From: a virus
Direction: 5' to 3' (one strand)
Virus record (IMG/VR): IMGVR_UViG_3300042308_001511
Span: 248,001-312,000 of that record
DNA length: 64,000 nt
The notes under the pieces were generated by a model. That model saw only the letters and a list, made by a program, of their open reading frames with translations. It searched no databases and was not told the DNA's origin. The position numbers and the translations under genes were made by a program. This document shows, piece by piece, positions 23,158 to 30,812 of the stretch. Position 1 is the stretch's first letter; every line of letters starts with the position of its first letter.

Positions 23158-23170
23158 GTATATTTGTAAA
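23158..23170 (+). promoter_or_regulatory. Host-type promoter GTATATTTGTAAA
   Basis: -7 element immediately upstream of the restriction-enzyme-like gene. Confidence 0.6.
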
Positions 23171-23180
23171 AAAAAAAGAA

Positions 23181-24131
23181 ATGATGATGAACAGAACCAC
23201 AAAAGAAGAATTCACACAGGAACTATCCGACTGGGCTAAAAACTGGGAAAACGATATCCAAAAGTCTCTAAAAAGAAACATCACACTTTATTTAAACGGA
23301 ATCGGCAATATGGGTGAATACCTGGCATCACTAATTTCCGGAAAAAAAGGCACCGCATCCGGCGGCAGCGGATTCGACCTATTACACGGCACAACCGCAG
23401 ATGAATCCAAATTCGCATGTCTTGTACAAGCAAAAAAATGCACAAACAAAAATTGCGAAACAAAATTCCTTTTCTTTATGCCAACCGATAAATGTGAAAA
23501 ATGTGGCAGCAACTTAGATTATATGAGCGACTCACGTTGGGGAATCGATTCAGATGCTGGCATAAAATACCACGAAACATTAGAATACTACTGGATGCAA
23601 ATACTTGAACCAGTAAAATACCACTACTCTTGTAGAGAATTCGTATACAAATGCTTTAGAATAGACGCTAAAGATAAAAACTTCTACGAATACCTAAAAA
23701 ACCAAAACGATAACGGATCCAAAAATAACTGCAACTTCCAACCATACTCCGTAGACTTCTACAGATCATCACCTGTACTTGTTGCAGAATTCAAAATAGA
23801 AATCGGTATCGAAACTAAAGTAACACCAACATTCTTCGACCTAGATAACCAACAACCCGAAGAATTCGATACAAAAATATTAGAAATAACACACTGCAAA
23901 AGAACTCTCGATGTATTAGGACTTGATGAAACCAAAATATACCCATACACTCAGAATAAAAATAAATCTTGGAGCAAACAAGATGTACTAGAAACAGGTT
24001 TCACTAAAGAAAGAGATTACCTAATCAAAATTATACTCGAAAACCTAAACGGTAAAAAACTTTCACAAATAGTTCCAATCAAACCAAAATCATTAGGCAA
24101 AGAAAGAGGAACAACAAGGAGAAAACTCTAA
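23181..24131 (+). CDS. Candidate type II restriction endonuclease
   Basis: 316 residues. GGSGFDLLHG followed by ACLVQAKKC gives a D-x(n)-QxK arrangement compatible with a PD-(D/E)xK nuclease core, with Gln in place of the usual Glu. Two CxxC pairs (CTNKNCE, CEKCGS) suggest a zinc site. The cognate-looking methyltransferase is the very next gene, convergent. This convergent R-M layout is common for type II systems. The restriction call rests on the weak nuclease motif plus context; a different nuclease is possible. Tandem Met codons leave the exact start uncertain by 1-2 residues. Confidence 0.55.
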   Translation: MMMNRTTKEEFTQELSDWAKNWENDIQKSLKRNITLYLNGIGNMGEYLASLISGKKGTASGGSGFDLLHGTTADESKFACLVQAKKCTNKNCETKFLFFMPTDKCEKCGSNLDYMSDSRWGIDSDAGIKYHETLEYYWMQILEPVKYHYSCREFVYKCFRIDAKDKNFYEYLKNQNDNGSKNNCNFQPYSVDFYRSSPVLVAEFKIEIGIETKVTPTFFDLDNQQPEEFDTKILEITHCKRTLDVLGLDETKIYPYTQNKNKSWSKQDVLETGFTKERDYLIKIILENLNGKKLSQIVPIKPKSLGKERGTTRRKL

Positions 24132-24159
24132 AAACAAATAAAACAAATAAAACAAATAA

Positions 24160-24180
24160 GAGGCCAAACGGCCTCTTTTT
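24160..24180. terminator. Strong intrinsic terminator between convergent R and M genes
   Basis: GAGGCC-AAAC-GGCCTC followed by TTTTT; a perfect 6-bp GC-rich stem. Confidence 0.9.
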
Positions 24181-24182
24181 CT

Positions 24183-25196
24183 TTATTCTAAATCCAATTC
24201 CGAATCCAATTCCGATTCCAAACCAGAATCCATCTTAATCAACTCCTTCTTACGCTTCTTACCCTTCTCCCTAACACTACCATCAAAGTAACCCTCCGGC
24301 AATTCAAAATTACTATCCTTTAACCTCTGTTCAACCAACCAAAAATACCTCTGATCTATATCAACTCCTAAATAGTCACGCCCTAACCTCTTAGCACCCA
24401 TTAATGAACTACCAGAACCCATAAAAAAATCTATCACCAAATCACCCTCTACCGAACTAGTCTTTATTATACGATCAACCAACATATCCGGCTTCTGTGT
24501 AGGATGAAACTTAGTACCCTTCTTAAAATAAAAAACAATATCGTCCCAAACATCCGTAAGTCCAAACTGCATATTGAATTTGTAAACCATATCATCATAC
24601 GCCGGTAACCTACCGTCAAATAAAATATCCAACTTAGTCCAATCCTCCCTCGTTGGCTGCATCAATGTCTTCTGTCTCAAACCGGCTATAGAACTCCACG
24701 TTCCACCTCCCCATGATGCCTTACCCAAATACTCATTTATCTCCTTTGGCGTAAGACCCTTCCTATCCTTCTCAACATTCAAAAGCTTCCTAATAACATC
24801 CGTAGAATCATAGTAAAATAAAAATGCACTCTCCGTAGTAGTTGGATACATCTTCAACTTAGAACTAACACGACCCGCCGCACTCTTCATACCCTTCCAA
24901 ATAACAACCTGCTGCTTAAACTTAAAACCATACCTCTCAAAAATAGGTATCAACATAGATAACTGATAAGGAAAACCAAAAACCCATACAGATCCAGAAT
25001 ATTTCGATATCCTCGAAACCTCACTAATCCATTTCTCACACCAATCTAAATACTCATCTATACTACGCCACTGCTTATCCCAATCCTCATTCACCACATT
25101 CATATACGGCGGATCTAATAAAAACAAATCACAGCTCCTGTCTGGTAACGTCGGCAAAAATTTGATTATGTCCGCGTTGTGAATCTCATTCCTCAT
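24183..25196 (-). CDS. DNA adenine/cytosine-N4 methyltransferase (beta-type)
   Basis: 337 residues. Motif IV LLDPPY at 26-31 precedes the SAM-binding motif FMGSGS near residue 270, the beta-class permutation of N6A/N4C amino-methyltransferases; FHPTQKP before motif I is typical. Putative partner of the restriction endonuclease 23181-24131. The C-terminus has a repetitive acidic tail (ESELDSELDLE) encoded by imperfect short repeats. Its coding strand is G+T-rich, opposite to other minus-strand genes, so the base skew of this block follows the DNA strand, not the gene. Confidence 0.9.
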   Translation of the reverse strand: MRNEIHNADIIKFLPTLPDRSCDLFLLDPPYMNVVNEDWDKQWRSIDEYLDWCEKWISEVSRISKYSGSVWVFGFPYQLSMLIPIFERYGFKFKQQVVIWKGMKSAAGRVSSKLKMYPTTTESAFLFYYDSTDVIRKLLNVEKDRKGLTPKEINEYLGKASWGGGTWSSIAGLRQKTLMQPTREDWTKLDILFDGRLPAYDDMVYKFNMQFGLTDVWDDIVFYFKKGTKFHPTQKPDMLVDRIIKTSSVEGDLVIDFFMGSGSSLMGAKRLGRDYLGVDIDQRYFWLVEQRLKDSNFELPEGYFDGSVREKGKKRKKELIKMDSGLESELDSELDLE

Positions 25197-30044: not shown

Positions 30045-30812
30045 TTATTTTTCTAAGTTTTCTTTTACTCCAATTTGGTTCAGTCTATCAACACACATAT
30101 CATAATACATAGGATTGTTTTCAATTAGTATAAAATTCCTTTTTGTGTTTTTCGCGGCTAATCCTGTAGTCCCACAACCAGCACAATTATCTAAAATAAT
30201 ATTATCTTCATTACTATATGTTTTTATTAGATACTCACACAATTCTTGACTTTTTTGTGTTGGATGTATCGGTGGATGTGGTCTATCAAAACTTAAAATA
30301 CTTTTAGGATATTTTTTAGTATCACCCTTTCTATTTGCCGAAGGATTTTTATGACTATCAAATTTACCATAATTATTATTACCTAAATTACCATCTTTAT
30401 ATTTAGTACCCATACCATGTAAAGGTTCACCCTCAGTAAATTGTGGATTATATATTGGTAATTTTTTATAAAACACTATGATATCCTCATGGTTTCTTAA
30501 AGGCATTCTTTTAGCATTTAAAAATCCACTTCCCCTATTACCTTTATCCCAAATAAGATTATATCTATGTATTTTTTCATTAGATAACATCAACTTAGCA
30601 GTGAATTTATCCTGTCCAAATAAAATTATAGGTGAATTTTCTTTAGTTATCCTATTATATTGTTCCCAAAGTAATTCTAAATTTATGACTGAATCCCATT
30701 TGTTTTTGGTAACACCATAAGGTAAATCACATAATATCATATCAATATACTTATCAGGGATAGATTTCATTACTTCTAAACAATCCCCTAAATATGTTTT
30801 ATTTATTTCCAT
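30045..30812 (-). CDS. DNA N6A/N4C methyltransferase, orphan
   Basis: 255 residues. LCDLPYG at 28-33 is motif IV, and DNCAGCGTTGLAA near 205 is the SAM motif; HPPIHPTQKS precedes it, so beta-class order. No nuclease neighbour, hence an orphan enzyme that may protect phage DNA from host restriction. Coding composition is AT-richer and more host-like than neighbours. Confidence 0.9.
   Translation of the reverse strand: MEINKTYLGDCLEVMKSIPDKYIDMILCDLPYGVTKNKWDSVINLELLWEQYNRITKENSPIILFGQDKFTAKLMLSNEKIHRYNLIWDKGNRGSGFLNAKRMPLRNHEDIIVFYKKLPIYNPQFTEGEPLHGMGTKYKDGNLGNNNYGKFDSHKNPSANRKGDTKKYPKSILSFDRPHPPIHPTQKSQELCEYLIKTYSNEDNIILDNCAGCGTTGLAAKNTKRNFILIENNPMYYDMCVDRLNQIGVKENLEK

Follow-up and report, generated by a model that had tools for sequence, protein, structure and literature searches.

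The window analyzed here is a stretch of 64,000 bases (248001-312000) from a 344,083-base (344-kb) virus record, G000, and it harbors two convergent genes that almost certainly constitute a restriction-modification (R-M) pair carried in a phage genome. Both open reading frames lie where an earlier note on this DNA had placed them, with their stop codons 51 bp apart. Over its first 25 kb, the window has no DNA-level relatives among deposited phages. The features of the locus, in window coordinates, are as follows:

23159..23172, plus strand: TATATTTGTAAAAA, candidate promoter element just upstream of the nuclease gene, resembling the Bacteroidota -7 element TAnnTTTG
23181..24131, plus strand: MamI-like restriction endonuclease, PD-(D/E)xK with zinc ribbon, 316 aa (sub-threshold RE_MamI match, relatives above the cut-off; adjacent to the methyltransferase gene)
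23376..23411, plus strand: catalytic motif D66-x8-E75-S-K77 (invariant in 19 homologs, including the L010 nuclease)
23439..23504, plus strand: C4 zinc ribbon C87-x4-C92-x12-C105-x2-C108 (four cysteines invariant in 19 homologs)
24158..24177: perfect 8-bp hairpin AAGAGGCC-AAAC-GGCCTCTT, terminator between the convergent genes (read in the sequence)
24183..25196, minus strand: beta-class DNA methyltransferase, probably N6-adenine, 337 aa (PF01555, E 2.6e-33; 72% identity to the L006 methyltransferase)
24411..24428, minus strand: methyltransferase motif I FFMGSG, residues 257-262 (from the translation; invariant in the methyltransferase alignment)
25104..25115, minus strand: methyltransferase motif IV DPPY, residues 28-31 (from the translation; invariant in the same alignment)

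The nuclease, the methyltransferase and the signals around them

The 316-aa protein had been proposed to be a PD-(D/E)xK nuclease with zinc knuckles. The invariance of D66, E75 and K77 bears out the first part of this assignment; as for the second, the invariant cysteines C87, C92, C105 and C108 make up a C4 zinc ribbon rather than knuckles. The QAK tripeptide at residues 83-85 was considered as the catalytic motif and rejected, the ExK at 75-77 being the motif that is conserved also in L010 (see below). Against the Pfam RE_MamI profile (PF09567), the window nuclease scores 17.7 bits (E 0.003), below the curated cut-off of 25 bits, whereas its closest relative, from IMG/VR contig 3300032223_002580 (L006; 44% identity), and the L010 nuclease score above it, at 25.3 and 75.8 bits, respectively. 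Hence, we term the protein MamI-like rather than a certified RE_MamI member, a designation in which we have high confidence. It also weakly matches the PADLOC type II REase model and has no match in PHROGs or NCBIfam. Its predicted structure is of moderate quality (pLDDT 64.6, pTM 0.65), and in structural comparison it comes closest to restriction endonucleases, namely the N-terminal domain of Eco15I (Z 6.3) and PvuII (Z 5.0-5.9), although such Z values from a moderate model are not conclusive by themselves; a Foldseek search with the model gave no significant match. The window nuclease resembles the MamI family in being a PD-(D/E)xK enzyme with a linked beta-class methyltransferase, the two genes being convergent in the bacterial loci that we examined. 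It departs from that family in its sub-threshold score, and the phage members depart from it in being phage-encoded and, in one lineage, in having no methyltransferase.

The identification of the second gene as a beta-class methyltransferase is unmistakable, as the PF01555 match is accompanied by the order DPPY, target domain and FxGxG (FMGSG, 258-262). The closest solved relative is MboIIA (1g60), with CcrM and RsrI among the others. Given the DPPY motif and these adenine-specific solved relatives, the enzyme probably methylates N6-adenine.

Besides this enzyme, the virus record encodes at least three methyltransferases of that superfamily. A second R-M pair might be present in the same phage (L002:915-2241; about 177,895-179,221 in G000), where an ORF of 201 aa containing the motif GSDAFD...EYKSQ overlaps a PF01555 methyltransferase gene; the 201-aa protein has no Pfam or PADLOC match. 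Within the window, a 255-aa PF01555 methyltransferase is encoded at 30045-30812 on the minus strand, with no recognizable nuclease beside it.

The earlier note had also described a perfect terminator between the genes, and the 51-bp gap indeed contains the 8-bp hairpin, accompanied by a T-run on the plus strand and by a less marked one on the minus strand. Since the region displays seven terminator-like sites as against 4.0 +/- 1.9 in shuffled sequences, it is the placement of this hairpin between convergent stop codons, more than its bare existence, that carries weight. Upstream of the pair, the candidate element is one of 21 copies in the window (3.6 expected) of a motif, TATATTYGTAAAAA, allowing up to two mismatches (e.g., 23159, 25278 and 25818), which often stands just upstream of genes; this motif is probably a promoter of the window phage akin to the Bacteroidota -7 element.

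Linkage of the two genes in viruses and bacteria

The strength of the association between the two genes was gauged by scanning viral contigs and bacterial genomes. The window nuclease alone retrieved no matches from viral contigs, whereas the nuclease alignment recovered 22 IMG/VR loci, L006 among them. A homolog of the window methyltransferase directly adjoins the nuclease in 17 of the 22, some of which are near-duplicates; usually the genes of a pair overlap by 16 nt, the methyltransferase gene starting before the nuclease gene has ended. In L006, both the nuclease and the methyltransferase homolog beside it are related to their window counterparts. As for the remaining five loci, one contig (L018) ends just after the nuclease, and four (L022, L026, L031 and L034) feature unrelated genes at that position.

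The phage nuclease alignment, which with L010 included is too diverse to serve as a scan query, found no matches in bacterial genomes. The L010 nuclease, a closer RE_MamI match, recovered nine bacterial loci from Clostridia and Planctomycetota, and in all seven of those with an intact flank the same kind of methyltransferase is present, convergent with the nuclease gene as in the window. L010 itself (MT836270.1) likewise has a convergent pair. Although this record is labeled as a phage clone, a Firmicutes CAG:176 scaffold encodes a nuclease with 98% identity to that of L010; the record is probably bacterial rather than phage and is counted here with the bacterial evidence. Co-occurrence is therefore strong in both viruses and bacteria, and the pairing persists through three gene arrangements: convergent, methyltransferase first and nuclease first. 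The linkage of an endonuclease gene to a DNA methyltransferase gene that defines type II R-M systems is thus found here as adjacent, convergent genes and is conserved in viruses and bacteria. Taken with the identity of the genes, the conserved active site and the zinc ribbon, it supports the claim of the earlier note that a complete R-M system resides in this phage.

Solitary nucleases and GA-N6-TC sites in cyanophages

The nuclease occurs without a methyltransferase beside it in the Synechococcus phages ACG-2014h and S-H9-1, as well as in L022, L026, L031 and L034, and no homolog of the window methyltransferase was found anywhere in the two complete genomes. These two genomes, 382 kb in all, are devoid of GANNNNNNTC (GA-N6-TC, or GAN6TC), as against about 1,665 expected (784 in ACG-2014h and 858 in S-H9-1 when each is taken on its own), and synonymous-codon shuffling within their long ORFs yields an expectation of about 503 and 528, respectively, where none is observed. 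The absence is specific to this pattern: GA and TC at every other spacing from 0 to 14 are present in the hundreds, ten-mers one substitution away number 21,413, and, among the 256 XX-N6-YY combinations, GAN6TC alone falls below an observed/expected ratio (O/E) of 0.76, the other 255 standing at 0.76 or above. The 6-bp motifs absent from these genomes (AGAN6TCT, GATN4ATC, GAAN4TTC and others) give the impression of many sites, but the gapped ones in this set reduce to GAN6TC. The four solitary IMG/VR loci pooled likewise have no site against 156 expected, such that all six solitary-nuclease loci have zero. By comparison, the O/E is 0.97-1.19 in six nuclease-free cyanophage genome stretches used as controls, which include S-CAM1, recorded on WH7803, the host strain also of ACG-2014h.

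Between these extremes lie the paired cyanophage-like contigs, whose O/E ranges from 0 to 1.08, and AG-345-D19, a marine virus in which the nuclease gene is truncated by the contig end and which retains 26 sites against 224 expected. Sites thus persist in most of the paired phages and are absent in the nuclease-only phages. From the range among the paired contigs, the purging of sites in some lineages apparently started before the methyltransferase was lost; the depletion in some of them (O/E 0-0.5) suggests that methylation may protect incompletely or that the purge is older than the loss. The solitary nucleases form one group in the tree (support 80/89), nested among the paired ones, and a single methyltransferase loss therefore suffices to account for them. 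The dN/dS between diverged members of this group is 0.07-0.10, indicative of purifying selection. An enzyme kept intact while all its sites were removed would be one that is made and cuts, and in the ACG-2014h/S-H9-1 lineage the nuclease is, judging from the genomes, very probably active in vivo.

We consider it very likely, from these site counts, that the cyanophage homologs recognize GA-N6-TC. MamI and BsaBI cut GATNNNNATC. The deduced cyanophage site contains this sequence in register, GATNNNNATC fixing one more base on each side, so that the cyanophage members would read four bases where MamI reads six. With both genes present, the window phage retains 1,216 GAN6TC sites (O/E 0.85) and L006 has an O/E of 0.76, while GATNNNNATC occurs 121 times in the window phage against 140 expected, which is no avoidance, as expected with a methyltransferase. 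These counts give no clue to what its enzyme recognizes, as would be expected if the sites are methylated. The window nuclease shares just 26-31% identity with those of the cyanophages and is longer by about 60 C-terminal residues, and its site may therefore differ; on balance, we lean slightly toward its sharing GA-N6-TC or a narrower version of it.

Other short motifs are missing from cyanophages too: GTAC is absent from 50 kb of Prochlorococcus phage Syn1 (L072, 40-90 kb; about 198 expected) and CTNAG from S-CAM1 (L074; 195 expected), GANTC is depleted in S-WAM2 (L073; 34 against 231), and CCGG is missing, or almost so, from most of the cyanophages scanned. An RsaI-like phage nuclease was considered for the GTAC absence and set aside, the Syn1 record having no homolog; the CTNAG, GANTC and CCGG depletions may be due to phage nucleases or to host systems. 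Further R-M sets were noted in related cyanophages, namely a restriction endonuclease II with a methyltransferase (L071:9503-12477) and an R.RsaI with a methyltransferase (L088:9901-11179), both in a variable region near endonuclease V and 2OG-Fe oxygenase genes that appears to be an R-M hot spot.

A probable phage-borne restriction system and its possible uses

We posit, with a probability of about 0.8, that the window locus is a complete type II R-M system of the MamI kind in a jumbo phage. The methyltransferase would mark the adenine of the nuclease's site and so shield the phage genome, the nuclease would cut unmethylated copies of the gapped palindrome GA-N6-TC, or of a narrower site such as GATNNNNATC, and during infection the unmarked DNA of the host chromosome and/or of co-infecting phages would come under attack. 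That the genes are instead accidental neighbors, an orphan methyltransferase having come to lie beside a decayed or unrelated nuclease, might be suggested by the presence of at least three other methyltransferases in this phage and by the frequency of orphan methyltransferases in phages at large; the recurrence of the pair in both viruses and bacteria, under three gene arrangements, and the intact catalytic and zinc residues make this exceedingly improbable. A different objection concerns the cyanophages, where the lack of GAN6TC in ACG-2014h and S-H9-1 could stem from the avoidance of a host R-M system unrelated to the phage nuclease. Such avoidance is common in phages, the large survey of it having dealt with host-encoded systems (PMC6286503), and most of the cyanophages tested also lack other motifs, such as CCGG. 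We nevertheless find it quite improbable, as GAN6TC counts are normal in the six nuclease-free relatives, one of which shares its recorded host strain with ACG-2014h, all six solitary-nuclease loci have none and the missing pattern encompasses that of MamI in the same register.

With regard to function, the earlier note had offered two roles, the exclusion of competing phages and the stabilization of the genome. The latter would make the pair a selfish addiction module, in which loss of the locus kills the cell and the phage genome is thereby retained. Such behavior is known for plasmid-borne type II systems (PMC11324026), and a complete pair with its own terminator would make a portable cassette; yet addiction requires a surviving cell, whereas a 344-kb phage is probably lytic, and it cannot explain why one cyanophage lineage retains the nuclease under purifying selection without such a methyltransferase. 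Stabilization is accordingly disfavored, and addiction is unlikely for the nuclease family. An offensive role against host and/or rival DNA is, by analogy, likely, with the exclusion of competing phages being a plausible part of it that is not separated from the destruction of host DNA. In a narrower form of this reading, the nuclease would be used solely against rival phages, the host being spared or irrelevant. The R-M system of Melbournevirus, which attacks other marseilleviruses but leaves the DNA of the host uncut (PMC7253447), offers a precedent, and GAN6TC occurs 4-5 times per kb in cyanophages that lack the system. Chloroviruses, however, package their nucleases and break down the DNA of the host in a matter of minutes (PMC7019647), and a solitary nuclease has no methyltransferase alongside to spare the host; we therefore see the restriction to rivals as possible but rather doubtful.

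Virus-encoded R-M systems have precedents elsewhere. Chlorella viruses have adjacent restriction and methyltransferase genes with short sites (e.g., CviAI, CviAII), which are used during infection (PMC7019647); they differ in that they infect eukaryotes and protect by methylation, and no sequence relation to the window pair is shown here. Melbournevirus, as in the window, has a complete system, proposed to exclude co-infecting viruses (PMC7253447), but it is an amoebal giant virus, its site is GATC and host DNA is unaffected. The nearest parallel to the solitary state is PacI of Pseudomonas alcaligenes, a solitary restriction enzyme tolerated without a methyltransferase as the genome lacks its sites (cited in PMC3488263). 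PacI is bacterial; by contrast, among relatives of the window enzyme, though not in the window phage, a gapped 4-base site that is far more frequent has been eliminated from a phage genome of 190 kb. This methyltransferase-free, site-purged state is what sets the family apart from known R-M systems. Our literature search found no report of a solitary nuclease with its sites erased in a phage, which is not proof of novelty.

In phages, DNA methyltransferases are commonly regarded as a defense against restriction by the host. The window locus and its relatives show that phages carry the nuclease too. The loss of the methyltransferase, the erasure of sites and the continued selection on the nuclease amount to a natural experiment, which yields, from genome sequence alone, a predicted site and evidence that the nuclease acts in vivo. 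We moderately favor a picture in which a phage restriction enzyme serves as a weapon with two ways of sparing its bearer, namely methylation, as in the window phage, or the full erasure of sites from a 190-kb genome, as in the cyanophages, the latter reached through methyltransferase loss in partly purged ancestors, with the window enzyme belonging to a phage-wide GA-N6-TC family. The role of virus-encoded restriction enzymes, an old question, can thereby be put to the test in cyanophages amenable to culture, and the purging of a site throughout a genome provides a route to finding solitary phage nucleases and assigning their sites.
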